A stretch of 64,000 bases of DNA from Peptococcaceae bacterium. GTDB taxonomy: Bacteria; Bacillota; Desulfitobacteriia; Desulfitobacteriales; Syntrophobotulaceae. Below, piece after piece: positions 4,188 to 59,610 of the stretch. The position numbers were made by a program, and so were the translations under genes. Location: NCBI GenBank assembly GCA_012839895.1, contig DUML01000015.1:1-64000 (forward strand), in the 5' to 3' direction. The notes beneath the pieces were generated by a model, which saw only the letters and a list, made by a program, of their open reading frames with translations, searched no databases and was not told the DNA's origin. Every line of letters begins with the position of its first letter. Position 1 is the stretch's first letter.

Positions 4188-4313
4188 GAGCACTTTCTTT
4201 TTGGGCAGTTATTTTATATAATATTAAAAGCCATTTAACGTCTAAAAAGCTATTTAACGTATAATATTTTAAAAGTTTTCTAAAATAAAAGTAAAAAAAT
4301 AAAAGTAAAAAAC

Positions 4314-4568
4314 GATGATGAGGAGTTATCTTGAATAGCTGCTTTACCAGCGAGCAGGGACGGTGGAAGCCTGTAAAGTATGTCCAAGATGGATCACCTC
4401 GGAGTGATCGGTTGAAAGTTTGGAGTAAACCGATCCGGCTGTTCCCGTTAACGAACGCTAAAGTGCCCGGCATTTGTGCTGTCCGTCCTTATAATATTTT
4501 GGAGGGGGCAAGTCGGGAATTAAGGTGGTACCGCGAGTAACTCGTCCTTGATTTGGGGCGGGTTTTTT
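4314..4568 (+). promoter_or_regulatory. T-box leader for ileS (isoleucine tRNA sensing)
   Basis: Classical T-box riboswitch upstream of ileS. The T-box core aaggtggtaccgcg lies at 4522-4535. Its UGGN bulge is TGGT (4526-4529), whose last U would pair with discriminator A73 of tRNA-Ile. In stem I the context ggATCacctc places a specifier codon ATC (Ile) at 4393-4395. An intrinsic terminator (4541-4568) ends the leader. Uncharged tRNA-Ile should pair with the specifier and bulge and stabilise the antiterminator, raising ileS expression on isoleucine starvation. Confidence 0.95.
4541..4568 (+). terminator. T-box attenuator terminator of ileS
   Basis: ctcgtcc (4541-4547) pairs with the G-rich arm gggcggg, using some G-U pairs, followed by six T residues. 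It competes with the T-box antiterminator. Confidence 0.9.
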
Positions 4569-4599: not shown

Positions 4600-7365
4600 A
4601 TGGATTATCGCGACACATTGAATTTACCCCAGACCGATTTTCCCATGCGAGGCAATCTGCCGGAAAAGGAGCCGGAGATTCTAGCCAAATGGGAAAAAAC
4701 TAAAATCTATGAAAAGGTCCAAAAAACCAGGGAAGGAAAAGAACTATTTGTCTTGCATGACGGTCCCCCCTATGCCAACGGGGATATCCACCTGGGTCAT
4801 GCTTTAAATAAAGTTCTAAAGGATATTATTGTCAGGTATAAAACCATGCGGGGTTATAACGCACCATATGTACCGGGCTGGGATACGCACGGTTTGCCTA
4901 TTGAACAGCAGGTCATTAAAAAGCTTGGTCTTAACCGTCATGCGGTTTCGGTTCTGGATTTTAGAGCCAAATGCCGGGATTACGCCCTGGAGTATGTGGA
5001 AATTCAGAAAGAGCAGTTTAAAAGGTTAGGGGTCAGAGGAGACTGGGACAATCCCTATCTTACTTTAACTAAAGACTATGAAGCCGCTCAAATCGGGGTT
5101 TTTGGCGAAATGGCCAAAAAAGGCTATATTTACAAAGGTCTCAAACCGGTTTATTGGTGCCCGACTTGCGAGACCGCTTTGGCTGAGGCTGAAATCGATT
5201 ATGCTGATAGAAAATCGGCGGCCATCTTTGTCAAATTCCCGCTGAAAGACAGCCAAGGGCTTTTCTCGGAAGAAAATAGCTATGTTGTTATTTGGACAAC
5301 AACTCCCTGGACTATTCCCGCTAACCTGGCTATCTGCGTTCACCCTGAATTTGTCTACGCTTTGGTGCAGGATGGCAACGAATCTCTAGTCTTGGCTGAA
5401 GAAATGCTCCCTGCTCTTAGGGAGTTGTGGGGTAAGGAATTGCCTGTTAAGAAAACTTTCCGGGGCAAACAGCTGGAAGGGGTAGTTTGCCGGCATCCTC
5501 TTTTTGAACGGGATTCACTTCTTATCTGTGGTGAGCATGTCACTCTGGAGCAGGGTACTGGTTGCGTCCACACCGCTCCCGGACACGGGGAAGATGACTT
5601 CCTGGTAGGTAAGCAATATGGCCTGTCTGTTCTTTGTCCGGTTGATCATCAAGGAAAGTTCACTGAGGAGGTTGCTCCTTATGCCGGGGTGAAAGTGGAA
5701 AAGGCCAATGATTTAATTATTAAAGACCTGGAGACTGCCGGGATGTTGGTTAAGGCTGACAAGATCACCCATAGTTACCCCCATTGTTGGCGTTGTAAGA
5801 ATCCAATTATTTTTAGGGCTACCGAACAATGGTTTGCTTCCATTGACGGTTTCCGGCAGGAAGCCTTGGCTGAAATAGATCAAGTCCAATGGATTCCAGC
5901 TTGGGGTAAAGACAGAATTTACAATATGATTGCCGATCGAGGCGATTGGTGTATCTCCCGTCAAAGAACTTGGGGAGTGCCGATTCCGATTTTTTACTGC
6001 GAGGAATGCGGCAAAGAGATTATCAACGATACCACAATTAAAAACTTGCAAGAGATCTTCAGGCAAGAAGGCTCTGACGCCTGGTTTGCCCATTCGGCTG
6101 CAGAACTCTTGCCCCCGGGATTTAGGTGTGAATGCGGTTCGCAAACCTTCCGCAAAGAGACTGATATTATGGATGTCTGGTTTGACTCCGGTACCAGCCA
6201 TGTGGGGGTTCTTCAAAAAAGACCGGAACTTAAGTGGCCGGCAGATATGTATTTGGAAGGTTCCGACCAACACCGGGGCTGGTTTAATTCTTCTCTTTCT
6301 ACTTCCGTAGCGGCTTTTGGGAAGGCTCCCTATAAAAGTGTCTTAACCCATGGCTTCTTAGTAGATGAAAAAGGGCGGAAGATGTCCAAATCCTTAGGCA
6401 ACGGTGTTGATCCCTTGCAAGTGGTTCGAGATATGGGCGCCGATATTTTAAGGCTTTGGGTATCTTCGGCGGACTATAAAAATGATGTGGCGGCTTCTCC
6501 CAGAATTATGAAGCAAATGGCGGAGGCCTACCGGAAAATAAGAAATACCTTGCGCTTTTTGCTGGGTAACCTCTATGACTTTGACCCGGCGCAAAACAAA
6601 GTCGCTTATCCGGATTTAAAAGAGATAGACCGTTGGATTTTGCATAGACTAAGCAGGGTCATCGAGCGGGTGGTTAAGGCTTATGATGATTATGAATTCC
6701 ATGTGGTTTATCATACCGTGCACAATTTCTGCACAGTGGAATTAAGCGCAATTTATCTTGATATTGTCAAAGACAGGGTTTATGTTGAAGCCAAGGATTC
6801 GCTCCAGAGAAGGGCTGCTCAGACCGTTATGTATGAGCTCCTTAACGCTTTGGTCCGCCTTCTGGCCCCGATCTTAGTGTTCACTGCCGATGAGATTTGG
6901 TCTTATATTCCCGGGAATAAGGAAGATACGGATGTCCAGATGGAATTTATGCCCAAAGTCCAAGAGGAATGGCTGGATAACGCTCTCGAAGAAAGGTGGG
7001 CCCGGATCCTGGATTTAAGGTATGATATCACCAAGGCTTTAGAAGTAGCCCGCCAAGAAAAGTTGATTAATCATTCTTTAACAGCGAAAGTAGATCTTTA
7101 TGTAAGCGACGAGGAAACTTATTCTTTCTTGGTTGGTATTGAGAATTTGAAAGAGATTGTTATTGTTTCCGATCTAAAAATTCATTTCAGGGAAGAAGCG
7201 CCTGAAAGCGCACAGGAAGGAGAAAATTTTGCAGGGGTCAAAATCTTGGTTTCCCCGGCTCCCGGTGGCAAATGCGAACGCTGCTGGATGTACAGTGAGG
7301 AAGTCGGAAACGATAACGAACATCCCGAGCTGTGTCCCCGCTGTTTGGCGGTTATAAAAGGATAG
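4600..7365 (+). CDS. ileS: Isoleucyl-tRNA synthetase
   Basis: 921-residue class I aminoacyl-tRNA synthetase that charges tRNA-Ile. The HIGH motif is HLGH at residues 64-67 (context GDIHLGHALN), and the KMSKS motif is near residue 594-598 (GRKMSKSLGN). The C-terminal zinc module carries C892, C895, C912 and C915. An editing (CP1) domain with TTTPWTIPANLAI is present. Length is that of bacterial-type IleRS. The ribosome site aggaggaa precedes ATG 4600. Controlled by the T-box immediately upstream. Confidence 0.98.
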   Translation: MDYRDTLNLPQTDFPMRGNLPEKEPEILAKWEKTKIYEKVQKTREGKELFVLHDGPPYANGDIHLGHALNKVLKDIIVRYKTMRGYNAPYVPGWDTHGLPIEQQVIKKLGLNRHAVSVLDFRAKCRDYALEYVEIQKEQFKRLGVRGDWDNPYLTLTKDYEAAQIGVFGEMAKKGYIYKGLKPVYWCPTCETALAEAEIDYADRKSAAIFVKFPLKDSQGLFSEENSYVVIWTTTPWTIPANLAICVHPEFVYALVQDGNESLVLAEEMLPALRELWGKELPVKKTFRGKQLEGVVCRHPLFERDSLLICGEHVTLEQGTGCVHTAPGHGEDDFLVGKQYGLSVLCPVDHQGKFTEEVAPYAGVKVEKANDLIIKDLETAGMLVKADKITHSYPHCWRCKNPIIFRATEQWFASIDGFRQEALAEIDQVQWIPAWGKDRIYNMIADRGDWCISRQRTWGVPIPIFYCEECGKEIINDTTIKNLQEIFRQEGSDAWFAHSAAELLPPGFRCECGSQTFRKETDIMDVWFDSGTSHVGVLQKRPELKWPADMYLEGSDQHRGWFNSSLSTSVAAFGKAPYKSVLTHGFLVDEKGRKMSKSLGNGVDPLQVVRDMGADILRLWVSSADYKNDVAASPRIMKQMAEAYRKIRNTLRFLLGNLYDFDPAQNKVAYPDLKEIDRWILHRLSRVIERVVKAYDDYEFHVVYHTVHNFCTVELSAIYLDIVKDRVYVEAKDSLQRRAAQTVMYELLNALVRLLAPILVFTADEIWSYIPGNKEDTDVQMEFMPKVQEEWLDNALEERWARILDLRYDITKALEVARQEKLINHSLTAKVDLYVSDEETYSFLVGIENLKEIVIVSDLKIHFREEAPESAQEGENFAGVKILVSPAPGGKCERCWMYSEEVGNDNEHPELCPRCLAVIKG

Positions 7366-7423
7366 ATAACCCTGTTTTAACTCTGTTTGCAGCAAAGCAT
7401 TTGTCGATTAAAGATACCTCGAC

Positions 7424-7464
7424 AAGAGGGGCTATTGTAAAAAATTGCTAAGCAATAGCCTCTT
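7424..7464 (+). terminator. Hairpin downstream of ileS
   Basis: aagaggggctattg and caatagcctctt form a stem of about 12 bp with a small bulge and a loop of about 15 nt. The 3' flank (atattt) is only weakly T-rich. It immediately abuts the dispersed element at 7465. A closely similar hairpin occurs downstream of metK (44563-44604). Confidence 0.55.
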
Positions 7465-7640
7465 ATATTTGTTGCATTACCCGCTCACCACGCGACGAAG
7501 CTGTTCACTTGCTGCTACAGCTACTGCACCTAAACCTCCGGGCACTTACCCGCTGTGAACCACAGTGCAGTTTAACGCTGCAAAAGCTGCGCTCACAACG
7601 CTTCTCTGCTTTACGGTTCGCTAAGTAATGCAACAAATAT
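7465..7640. repeat. Dispersed structured element, copy 1 (176 bp)
   Basis: The element is bounded by a perfect 16-bp inverted repeat (7465-7480 and 7625-7640). A second copy at 16279-16456 is nearly the same along its length. Internal complementary pairs are gttcac/gtgaac (7503-7508 with 7555-7560) and actgcac/gtgcagt (7523-7529 with 7565-7571). They interleave in the order A-B-A'-B', compatible with a pseudoknot or alternative folds. It has no significant ORF and is visibly more GC-rich than the flanks. It fills most of the ileS to chemoreceptor gap (7366-7776). Nature unknown: possibly a non-autonomous mobile element or a structured RNA. Confidence 0.85.
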
Positions 7641-7776: not shown

Positions 7777-8634
7777 ATGAAACTCAGTCTGGATATTGCC
7801 AATAGAATAGTTAATGTCATCTATGAGAACTGCGGCTATCATTGCATCGTCGGCGACGAGCAGGGTAAGATTATTGCCGATTCCGCTCGCGAAAGAATAG
7901 GAAAGGTACATAAAGGTCAAGCTCGCATTCTTTCTTCCAGTATTAATGAAATATCAGTTACTAAGGAGCAGGAATTGGCGTCCGGCGGAACTGACAGGGA
8001 AGGGTATAATATTGCTATCATCTATCAGGACAAGAAATTAGGTTGTTTTGGCATTGCAGGACCAGTGGATATTGTTACCCCGATTGCTAAAGTGGCTGCA
8101 GGAATGGTGTCGACAATGATCCGGGATGAAGAGCTCAGAAACGTCCTGCGGCAGCAAGTCGAAAAGTTGAACCAATCTATTGAAATTGTTGCCAGTGCTG
8201 TGGAGGAAGTTGCCGCTTCTGCTGAAGAGGTGGCAGCCATCAGCCAAACTGTAGCCAATGCTGTTCTCGAAGGGCAGGAACAAGTGAAGAAGACAACTAA
8301 TATTATTGACTTTATCCGGCGGGTGGCGGTTCAGACGAATCTCTTAGGGCTGAATGCGGCTATTGAAGCCGCGCGGGCTGGAGAACACGGCAAAGGTTTT
8401 TCAGTTGTAGCCGATGAGGTTAGAAAACTAGCTGAAGAAAGCAATCGCTCCACAGACGAAATAGATCAAATTCTCACTCAGTTTGAGGAAGTTATTGCGC
8501 GGATCAGTGAAGGAGTAAAACAGAATAATGCTGTTGTTCAAGAACAGGCAAAGGCTACCCAAGATATAACCGGGATTGTCCAAACTGTGCAACAGGTTGG
8601 ATTTGATCTCGATTCTATAGCCAGTCAATTATAA
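7777..8634 (+). CDS. Soluble methyl-accepting chemotaxis-like protein with diacid-sensor domain
   Basis: 285 residues, no transmembrane helix. Residues 1-125 resemble the putative sugar-diacid recognition domain of CdaR-type regulators ([38 protein letters not shown]). Residues about 130-285 form a short MCP signalling coiled coil with the conserved hairpin tip [20 protein letters not shown] and [13 protein letters not shown], the CheA/CheW contact region. It would be a cytoplasmic receptor for a small organic acid. No che genes are in the window, so the partner is elsewhere. An excellent ribosome site (ggaaggaggg) precedes ATG 7777. The signalling domain is short and may work in non-flagellar signalling. 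Confidence 0.85.
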
Positions 8635-14027: not shown

Positions 14028-14966
14028 ATGCAGTGGAGACATAAAGATTTACTGGATTTGGACACTCTGACAGCTGAAGAGATCAGGCATATTATCAAGA
14101 CAGCCCAACCCATGAAGGAAATACTTTCCCGTCCGATGAAAAAACTTCCGACTTTAAGAGGTAAGAATGTTGTTTTATTGTTTTACGAATCAAGTACCAG
14201 AACTCGGACTTCCTTTGAAACAGCGGCCAAGATTTTGGGGGCTGATACTACCAATTTCTCCGTAGCGGTTAGCAGTGTCAATAAAGGGGAAAGCCTCCTG
14301 GATACGGCTAAAACTTTACAAGCCATGAATGTTGATTTGGTTATTGTTCGTCATTCCAGTTCCGGTGCGGCGGAGTTTTTGGCCAATGTTTTGGAGGCTG
14401 GGGTGATTAACGGCGGTGACGGCCAACATGCTCATCCGACCCAAGCCTTGCTGGATTTTTATACCCTTCAGGAAAAACTGGGCGGCTTTGAAGGAAAAAA
14501 GATTGTTATTGTCGGCGATATCCTTCACTCCAGGGTGGCGAGAAGCAACGTCCTGGGTTTAAAGAAACTGGGGGCGGATGTCACCCTGGTTGGTCCTCCT
14601 ACTCTTTTGCCGGATGAAATGAAATACCTTGGAGTTAAGCTGTCCTACGACCTAGATAAGGAACTGCCCGGAGCAGACGCTGTCATGGCTTTGCGCCTTC
14701 AGCTGGAGAGACAGCAAAGCGGGCTTTTCCCTTCGATTCGGGAATATAGCAAGTTGTACGGCCTTAGCCTGGAAAGGCTGAAAAAAACCGGCAAAAAAAC
14801 CATCGTAATGCATCCAGGTCCAATGAACAGGGGAGTCGAGATTATGAGCGACCTGGCGGACAGTGTCCAGTCGGTGATTGAAGAACAGGTTACCAACGGA
14901 GTTGCCGTGCGGATGGCATTAATTTATTTGCTGATAGGGGGAGGGACAGGCAATGTGGTGGATTAA
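14028..14966 (+). CDS. pyrB: Aspartate carbamoyltransferase catalytic subunit
   Basis: 312 residues. It makes carbamoyl-aspartate from carbamoyl phosphate and aspartate, the first committed step of pyrimidine synthesis. The carbamoyl phosphate loop STRTRTSFE starts at S56, and HPTQALLDFYTL and MHPGPMNRGVE are further active-site blocks. No pyrI regulatory subunit follows, consistent with the Firmicutes catalytic-trimer type. It overlaps pyrC by 14 bp. Confidence 0.97.
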   Translation: MQWRHKDLLDLDTLTAEEIRHIIKTAQPMKEILSRPMKKLPTLRGKNVVLLFYESSTRTRTSFETAAKILGADTTNFSVAVSSVNKGESLLDTAKTLQAMNVDLVIVRHSSSGAAEFLANVLEAGVINGGDGQHAHPTQALLDFYTLQEKLGGFEGKKIVIVGDILHSRVARSNVLGLKKLGADVTLVGPPTLLPDEMKYLGVKLSYDLDKELPGADAVMALRLQLERQQSGLFPSIREYSKLYGLSLERLKKTGKKTIVMHPGPMNRGVEIMSDLADSVQSVIEEQVTNGVAVRMALIYLLIGGGTGNVVD

Positions 14967-16275
14967 GAAAGCCCTGGTGCTGGATCCTGCTCAAGGTTAT
15001 ACAGGAGAAAGAGATGTTTTGGTTAAAGACGGTTTCATCTTGAAAGTTGGCAATTTCCTGGAGGAAGATGTACCGGAGTTTTTTGGGCAGGAGAATTTAG
15101 AGGGCGTAAAGATAGTCGAAGCCGCCGGTAAGTATTTATTTCCTGGTTTGATCGATGTGCACGTCCATTTGCGGGAACCGGGACAAGAGGATAAAGAAGA
15201 TATTCGAAGCGGCTCGCGGGCGGCTGTGAGAGGAGGTTTTACCTCGGTCTTAGCCATGGCCAATACCAAGCCTGTAATTGATCAAAGGGCTTTGGTAGAA
15301 TTCGTCCGCCTCCAAGGGGAAAGGGCTGGGATGGCCAGGGTCTATCCGGTGGCGGCTGTTACGAAAGGTTTCCAAGGTCAGGAACTGGTAGAAATGATGG
15401 ATATACGGGAAGGGGGAGCGGTGGCCTTTTCCGACGATGGTTTGGGAATTCAAAATGCAGAGATTATGCGCTTGGCTTTTGAATATGCCAAGTTGACAGG
15501 TTGTCCGATTATTAGTCATTGTGAGGATGAAAATTTGGCTGCCCGAGGGGTAATGCGCCGTGGGGAAGCAAGCGCCAGATTGGGGTTAAAAGGTATTCCG
15601 GCCAGTGCCGAAAGTGTTATGGTGGCGAGAGACGTCCTACTAGCCGGAGAGGCGGGAGGCAAGCTTCATATCGCCCATGTCTCCACCAAAGAAAGCGTCA
15701 TGATCATCAGGACGGCTAAAAAATTGGGCATAGATGTTACAGCGGAAGTTAATCCCCACCATTTGCTTTTCAGCGATCAAGATGTGGGTTTAACCAGGAC
15801 GGACTTGAAAGTCAATCCTCCTCTGCCGACCAAAGAGGACCAGGAAGCTTTGCTGGAAGGGCTGCTGGATGGGACAATTGATATGCTGGCTACTGATCAT
15901 GCCCCTCATACCTGGGAAGAAAAGGCTAAACCTTTCCCTGAAGCTCCTTTTGGGATAAATTCGCTGGAGACAGCTTTAGCCGTTGTTTGGCAGGAGTTGG
16001 TAGAAAAAGGCAAATTGCCTGCGCTTAAAGTCATTGAGCTTTGGTCCCGTAACCCTGCCCAGCGCTTTAACCTACCGGGGGGGACACTGGAAACAGGTTC
16101 TCCTGCTGATCTTGTTTTATTTGATCCGGCTTATAAAGAGAGGATTACAGCGGAAAGCATGGAGTCTAAGGCTCAGAATACACCTTTCCTGGGACAAGAG
16201 CTACAGGGTTTCCCGGTAATGACTTGGGTGGGCGGGAAACTGGTCATGGCGGACAGGAAGGTTATCTGTAATTAA
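14953..16275 (+). CDS. pyrC: Dihydroorotase
   Basis: 440-residue type I zinc amidohydrolase that cyclises carbamoyl-aspartate to dihydroorotate. Metal ligands H70 and H72 lie in DVHVHLREPG; later metal-site blocks are ISHCED, HIAHVST and the ATDHAPH segment. The start ATG 14953 lies inside the end of pyrB, implying translational coupling. Four nucleotides after its stop begins the second copy of the dispersed element, where carA-carB are located in B. subtilis. Confidence 0.97.
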   Translation: MWWIKKALVLDPAQGYTGERDVLVKDGFILKVGNFLEEDVPEFFGQENLEGVKIVEAAGKYLFPGLIDVHVHLREPGQEDKEDIRSGSRAAVRGGFTSVLAMANTKPVIDQRALVEFVRLQGERAGMARVYPVAAVTKGFQGQELVEMMDIREGGAVAFSDDGLGIQNAEIMRLAFEYAKLTGCPIISHCEDENLAARGVMRRGEASARLGLKGIPASAESVMVARDVLLAGEAGGKLHIAHVSTKESVMIIRTAKKLGIDVTAEVNPHHLLFSDQDVGLTRTDLKVNPPLPTKEDQEALLEGLLDGTIDMLATDHAPHTWEEKAKPFPEAPFGINSLETALAVVWQELVEKGKLPALKVIELWSRNPAQRFNLPGGTLETGSPADLVLFDPAYKERITAESMESKAQNTPFLGQELQGFPVMTWVGGKLVMADRKVICN

Positions 16276-16278
16276 AGT

Positions 16279-16456
16279 ATATTTTTTGCATTACCCGCTC
16301 CTACGCGCGCCGAAGCTGTTCACTTGCTGCTACAGCTAATGCACCTAAACCTCTGGGTACTTACCTGCTGTGAACCAAGGTGCATTTTAACGCTGCAAAA
16401 GCTGCGCTCACAACGCTTCTCTGCTTAAACGGTTCGCTGAGTAAAGCAAAAAATAT
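16279..16456. repeat. Dispersed structured element, copy 2 (178 bp), inside the pyr operon
   Basis: Copy of the element at 7465-7640, in the same orientation. Its termini (16279-16294 and 16441-16456) pair at 15 of 16 positions. Relative to copy 1 the change G to T in the left terminus is matched by C to A in the right one. The internal stem aatgcacc/ggtgcatt (16338-16345 with 16379-16386) differs from copy 1 by a compensated C-G to A-T pair. It lies between pyrC and pyrK without an intrinsic terminator after it, so it is presumably transcribed within the pyr mRNA. Confidence 0.85.
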
Positions 16457-16523: not shown

Positions 16524-17366
16524 TTGTATCTAAACGAAAAAGTCGTTGAAAACCGGCTTGTTGGCCATCCTGGCCAAGCTATTTATAAAATGGTTTTAAA
16601 GGGGCAGGCAGCGCAAACCGCTCAGCCCGGGCAATTTGTCCATATTCGTGTAGCTGAGAGCTTTGACCCCCTTTTAAGGAGGCCTTTAAGTATTGCCGGG
16701 ATAAACCGGGAGAGGGAAGAAATAACCATCTATTACCGGGTAGCAGGTAAAGGTACGAGATTGCTCAGCCAAATTAGAGCTAATGAATATTTAAGTGTTT
16801 TAGGGCCCTTAGGGACAGGTTTTACGATTCCACGGGATGGGGAATTCTTGCTTATTGCCGGCGGGATAGGGGTTTTCCCTATTTATTCATTAATGGAGGC
16901 TGTGGCGCAGCCCCAGGTAAAAATAAAGCTGTTTTGGGGCGGGGAAAACAAAGAGTTTTTGGAAAGTGCCGGCCTAAAGCATTTGCAGGATTTAGGGATA
17001 GATTATGAAATAACAACTTTAGATGGAAGCCTGGGGCAACAGGGTTTAGTAACCGACCCTTTCCGAAAATATTTGGCAGAAGTATCAAATAGCTTTGCTG
17101 GGGTGAAAGACAAAACGAAAACTCCACCTCTTTGGGCAGCCGCTTGCGGGCCGCCTGGGATGCTTAAGGCTGTTACTGAGATTTGCTTGGAGAATGGTAT
17201 TCCTCTGGAAGTATCTTTGGAAGAACGGATGGCTTGCGGGGTAGGAGCCTGTTTGGGGTGTGTCTGTACAGTGCGGGATGCGGCAGGCAACCTACGGAGA
17301 AAAAGGGCCTGCAAGGATGGCCCGGTTTTTGAAGCCAAGGAGGTTGTTTGGGATGCAGGAGTATAG
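16524..17366 (+). CDS. pyrK: Dihydroorotate dehydrogenase electron transfer subunit PyrK
   Basis: 280 residues of the ferredoxin-reductase fold. N-terminal FAD-binding half with RRPLSIAGI, then [13 protein letters not shown] in the NAD-binding half. The C-terminal [2Fe-2S] ligands are C238, C243, C246 and C263 (CGVGACLGC context). It passes electrons from the PyrD flavin to NAD. Start is TTG 16524 behind aggagggagcc. Its 3' end overlaps pyrD by 14 bp, matching their role as partner subunits. Confidence 0.95.
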
Positions 17367-59454: not shown

Positions 59455-59610
59455 ACCAAAAAAATAACTCCGCGAGGAACCCGCGGAGTTGTTGTAACGG
59501 TTTTCCTCTCATCTTTCAGATTAACTCTGCTGGAATTAGCACCGCTGCATAAAAATGCCGGTTGCCGGGTTTCATTGGGCCAGTCCCTCCACCACTCTGG
59601 ATAAGAGTTT
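59455..59610 (-). promoter_or_regulatory. SAM-I riboswitch controlling metNIQ
   Basis: Read on the minus strand the conserved SAM-I core is present: CTTATC and AGAGNGGNGGAGGGACTGG (flanks near 59600), GAAACCCGGCAACC and GGTGCTAATTCC. A terminator with AACTCCGCG/CGCGGAGTT and a T-run (about 59460-59490) follows. High SAM should terminate transcription of the methionine importer. Confidence 0.97.

Follow-up and report, generated by a model that had tools for sequence, protein, structure and literature searches.

Although long intergenic fold-back repeats such as ERIC were recognized decades ago, there is still no consensus on their mechanism. ERIC elements, or IRUs, are dispersed intergenic imperfect palindromes of more than 100 bp which are predicted to form one long stem-loop and occur in several genera (PMC2267715). 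The bcr1 repeats of the Bacillus cereus group have a length of about 150-167 bp, are intergenic, share a common predicted fold and are present in tens of copies (PMC2267715). REPs have 20-40 bp, many end in GTAG, and they are linked to RAYT transposases (PMC3733652, PMC2817692). The BrickBuilt MITEs of Porphyromonas gingivalis are short, non-coding and intergenic; they possess inverted-repeat ends and sometimes tandem repeats (PMC4596501). Here we describe a new family of non-coding hairpin repeats which comprises hundreds of copies and spans a bacterial class.

Two window copies and their family

The window, i.e., the entire stretch of 64,000 nucleotides analysed, stems from a Peptococcaceae genome and contains two copies of the element with 90% identity to each other (Table 1). 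A preliminary description had located both correctly and had pointed to positions at which a difference between the copies is accompanied by a difference in the pairing partner. Base by base this is accurate: G7471-C7634 is T16285-A16450 in copy 2, C7524-G7570 of the internal stem is A16339-T16385, and the C/A apposition C7530/A7564 of copy 1 is a C-G pair in copy 2. When read on the minus strand, C7530/A7564 is a G·U wobble. Two copies alone are weak evidence of compensation; it is the larger alignments which carry the case. The flanking open reading frames come from a mechanical call rather than from a gene finder, and the gene names are our reading of the translations. Directly to the left of copy 1, at 7426-7464, a short inverted repeat, GAGGGGCTATTG...CAATAGCCTCTT, is discernible by eye; a repeat finder lists none in 7380-7480. 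The window further contains a T-box leader upstream of ileS (4306-4552, plus strand) and a SAM riboswitch (59506-59607, minus strand), both above the Rfam gathering score.

Table 1. Positions of the fold-back element, its parts and the neighboring genes in the window
Feature	Position	Strand	Remarks
Copy 1, fold-back element	7465..7640	-	Between ileS and a methyl-accepting-type sensor gene; functional fold on the minus strand
Copy 1 core	7472..7633	-	Full-length match to covariance model R1 at 171.3 bits
Left terminal arm, copy 1	7465..7482		Pairs with 7623-7640; sequence varies between genera, complementarity kept
Right terminal arm, copy 1	7623..7640		Complementary to 7465-7482
Tandem G·A step 1, one side	7485..7486	-	Alignment columns 156-157; 21/21 sequences
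Tandem G·A step 1, other side	7618..7619	-	Columns 15-16
Tandem G·A step 2, one side	7505..7506	-	Columns 133-134
Tandem G·A step 2, other side	7593..7594	-	Columns 43-44
Copy 2	16279..16456	-	pyrC-pyrK gap of the pyr operon; junction without element in relatives
Copy 2 core	16286..16449	-	Model R1, 158.2 bits
ileS	4600-7365	+	Left neighbor of copy 1; named from translation
Methyl-accepting-type sensor gene	7777-8634	+	Right neighbor of copy 1; named from translation
pyrC	14953-16275	+	Left neighbor of copy 2; named from translation
pyrK	16524-17366	+	Right neighbor of copy 2; named from translation

The element is not confined to the window. A blastn search of the genome yields 16 matches, nine of them near full length at 87-100% identity, the remainder fragments. 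Full copies in this genome have 170-178 bp. Across the family, a core of about 160 nt is extended to 180-210 nt by the terminal arms. From an alignment of 21 sequences (A2) a covariance model of 162 positions (R1) was built; a second alignment (A3) comprises 105 copies. Of 83 class genomes, the class being taken as Desulfitobacteriia from the named hosts, R1 finds the element in 61; in a phylum sample it does so in 13 of 398 genomes, three of these outside the class. The E-values of the model are rough owing to a short calibration. Individual genomes are densely populated: R1 recovers 53 copies or more in G032 and 42 or more in G046, each count being limited by how many candidates were scored. 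In a named genome collection the exact apical-loop pattern occurs in Desulfosporosinus, Heliobacterium mobile, Heliobacterium chlorum, Heliorestis and a Peptococcaceae MAG. The initial impression that no named family matches is borne out for Rfam: release 15, searched with the window and 20 diverse loci, has no match to the element at the gathering threshold and nothing consistent below it, and no description was found in the open-access literature.

The copies are intergenic. Of 101 placed copies, 75 lie between co-directional genes, 19 between convergent and 7 between divergent ones; 32 copies have the folding strand sense to the genes and 43 antisense. Among the neighbors of 105 copies no protein family recurs beyond ordinary paralogues and conserved gene neighborhoods. 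A gene leader or riboswitch was rejected, as neither an orientation nor a gene family is preferred. A search for carriage by phages or plasmids gave no match.

Fold, covariation and folding strand

The consensus fold is a single, nested, long bulged hairpin of 51 pairs. Folding is better than in shuffled sequences on both strands (z = -5.0 for plus, -4.4 for minus). In A2, 90.4% of the cells are paired and 100 cells carry two-sided changes compared with 27±4 in shuffled and 11-21 in slid controls. In A3 the respective numbers are 1415, 443±28 and 180-268; A2 is the fairer test because A3 was fitted to the model. The covariation in both alignments supports a folded structure which is either under selection, as had been surmised from the two window copies, or actively maintained. 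Random, uncompensated changes do not prevail among the many copies: two-sided changes are far above the controls. In all 21 sequences of A2, two tandem G·A steps are present without variation, and the loop bases of the element are conserved. The interleaved A-B-A'-B' stems of the preliminary description, thought to be compatible with a pseudoknot or two alternative folds, do not hold up. The candidate pair GTTCAC/GTGAAC displays one-sided changes only, and 9 of the 21 copies can form it in full. A plus-strand or pseudoknotted fold is weaker and without compensation.

Structured RNA or cruciform DNA had initially been proposed. The structure stands; what had escaped notice is that it forms on the window's minus strand. 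In A2, wobbles read on the minus strand are 68 G·U versus 18 A·C, and among the single changes in G032's core helices the ratio is 19:1. This G·U excess over A·C points to the minus strand as the folding strand, although some lineages do not show it (13:12 in G075). The share of G·U is 8% in a SAM riboswitch used as control, 7% in the 21-sequence set and 4% in the 105-copy set. These figures do not distinguish RNA from DNA, as much of the excess seen in SAM at variable pairs comes from pairs with a G·U consensus.

The terminal arms behave differently from a conserved sequence. Within one genome they are wholly different between copies, yet pair near-perfectly, and in copies from other genomes the sequence is different and complementarity is retained. 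G·U cells are scarce in them. In the outer arms of G046 and G075, 136 two-sided Watson-Crick changes stand against 3 one-sided G·U.

Presence, absence and nesting of copies

In G045 at least 15 copies are a near-identical unit with common ends and unrelated flanks. In a second subfamily of this genome the core is inverted inside the same outer frame. Presence/absence polymorphism is observed. At the pyrC-pyrK junction the element is found in the window genome only; G005, G008 and other relatives which keep the gene pair lack it, and in G005 the gap is 15 bp. A composite of about 300 bp containing the element (locus L147, G032) is missing at the orthologous site in G031; this may be an insertion in one genome or a deletion in the other, and the occupied/empty pair has no clear target-site duplication. 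Another copy (L155/L178) is common to two species and half deleted in a third (G031 at L155). Some Desulfosporosinus genomes carry the element in the mraY-murD gap; in others it is decayed or not there at all. This gap is also crowded by REP-like motifs, GGGGACGGTTCT/AGAACCGTCCCC, which interrupt copies of the element at L180, L196-L198 and others. In G012 (L264-L267) the element resides between a transposase gene, which we take to be IS1182-like, and the end of an IS-like unit present in four near-identical copies.

Orthologous copies record clean changes from one Watson-Crick pair to another, three in L155/L178 and four in L056/L066. These indicate that the fold is maintained in place and not merely inherited from founders. 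Such upkeep could be due to selection, to correction from the other arm, or to gene conversion between copies.

The hairpins are themselves sites of further hairpins. In G045 (L402-L404) extra hairpins are located at the first bulge and in the apical loop, with additional hairpins inside those. Inserted segments fold much better than shuffles in 8 of 11 cases (z -2.5 to -5.4); three are weaker. The apical site is occupied in G011, G033 and G045 by an apparently related insert. A double hairpin of about 50 bases, CGCTCCTTGCCATCC.TGGCA..CGCG.CAT.AG.CCATCC.TGG, is found in the apical loop at L034 and L040 (G011), L187 (G033) and L402-L403 (G045), i.e., in three genera, and L021 (G003) matches it in part. 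Other repeats adjoin the element. At L082-L111 (G045) these are degenerate 7-mer arrays (TGACTCC, TGAATTC, TGAGTAC and similar) and a module, CATCAGTGGTGCCGCATAGCGGCATGGGAGTC, the like of which recurs near element copies in G046 and G032. At L141-L159 (G032) a repeated, structured-looking GGTTGGAAACGTCCTGTTTCCAACC...GCTCGCTTA... lies beside many copies. In G046 (L120-L123) there are four pairs of inverted copies, spaced 130-210 bp apart.

Possible origins and relation to known repeats

What are these elements? Our preferred reading, to which we assign a probability of roughly 0.6, is a new family of fold-back repeats, non-coding and non-autonomous, which are or once were mobile; one strand folds as a long hairpin, and spread would take place as, or through, this folded single strand. 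From a family with a kept fold we infer movement as a folded DNA strand. Most plausibly, a DNA hairpin would be exposed during replication and be handled in trans by enzymes of the host or of mobile elements; after insertion, selection, templated correction from arm to arm, or the two together would keep the fold long-term, and occasionally the element may be carried inside an insertion sequence. Against this reading count that no target-site duplication is definable at the copies and loci compared, that no ORF-carrying parent was found in G045 or near the 105 copies, and that no mobilizing enzyme was identified. Likewise, that the fold persists at shared loci could signify a host function. 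A bolder version, a hairpin mobilome, is tentative: here a new type of mobile element would be defined by the shape of the folded strand and not by its end sequences, any complementary arms would do, bulges and the apical loop would be landing sites for other hairpins, and movement would not involve Y1/HUH enzymes.

For ERIC and REP, roles in processing, mRNA stability or attenuation have been proposed. By analogy, the element might be a structured RNA in host transcripts, selected at the RNA level, with its spread as a by-product. The fold kept at orthologous loci, where unpaired bases are no less conserved than paired ones, agrees with this, as do the G·U excess on one strand and the avoidance of divergent promoter gaps (7/101). 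Nonetheless, we consider it unlikely. The copies occur in both orientations relative to genes, so that only about half would be transcribed on the folding strand; copy 1 has no promoter or terminator enrichment and copy 2 just three weak minus-strand promoter-like sites; one copy is half deleted in G031; and G·U is scarce in the terminal arms. Alternatively, the arms may owe their complementarity chiefly to template switching within the hairpin, i.e., quasi-palindrome correction, with little selection; in favor of this are the near-perfect pairing of arms that are wholly different between copies of one genome and the 136 to 3 ratio of the outer arms. Such a process should erase conserved mismatches, yet the tandem G·A steps are invariant and loop bases conserved, and it explains neither strand asymmetry nor dispersal; as the main explanation it is improbable.

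The element might also be a SINE-like retroelement whose minus-strand RNA is reverse-transcribed in trans. The one-strand fold and the short tandem tracts abutting some copies fit this notion, whereas a consistent tail, a target-site duplication and a promoter were not found and no reverse transcriptase recurs near the copies, which makes it very improbable. Least credible of all is a REP/REPIN family mobilized by a RAYT or IS200-type Y1 transposase. The element is palindromic, intergenic and in G046 partly arranged in inverted pairs, but it is several times longer than REPs, and PF01797 (Y1/HUH transposase) has no match in the window genome or in G012, G005, G033, G056, G075, G077, G079-G081, G046 and G027, many of them rich in the element. 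For current activity this mobilization is largely refuted.

The class-wide range and hundreds of copies of the new family, its unrelated yet pairing arms and its occupied, decayed and probably empty orthologous sites render two questions testable: whether the DNA or the RNA strand is under constraint, and how movement proceeds without an obvious transposase.

Compared with described repeats, the element shares with REPs, BIMEs and REPINs its palindromic nature, the intergenic location and the occasional inverted pairs; it differs by its length, 170-178 bp in this genome, and has no RAYT-type link. Like MITEs it is non-coding, short and dispersed in many copies. In MITEs, however, the conserved inverted repeats at the ends are shared with a parent that carries a transposase; here the arms vary by copy, neither a common terminal sequence nor a parent IS nor a target duplication was found, and the whole length is structured. 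In fungal mitochondria double-hairpin elements insert into the loops of other hairpins; the likeness, to be taken as a lead, is the hairpin-in-loop insertion, the differences are the compartment and a much shorter length. bcr1 is described for one species group, whereas the present element spans a class and beyond, and its terminal sequence varies by copy. A close likeness is to ERIC: both are intergenic, dispersed, shared across genera and made up of a single long imperfect stem-loop. ERIC is about 127 bp long, the element 160-210, and the two, compared by description, belong to different phyla with no known sequence relation. In contrast to ERIC, the element has terminal arms that are interchangeable, tandem G·A steps, and hairpins nested in its loops. 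Neither a REP nor a demonstrated MITE nor an Rfam RNA, it resembles ERIC or bcr1 in the way it works, as a long intergenic repeat that folds back on itself.
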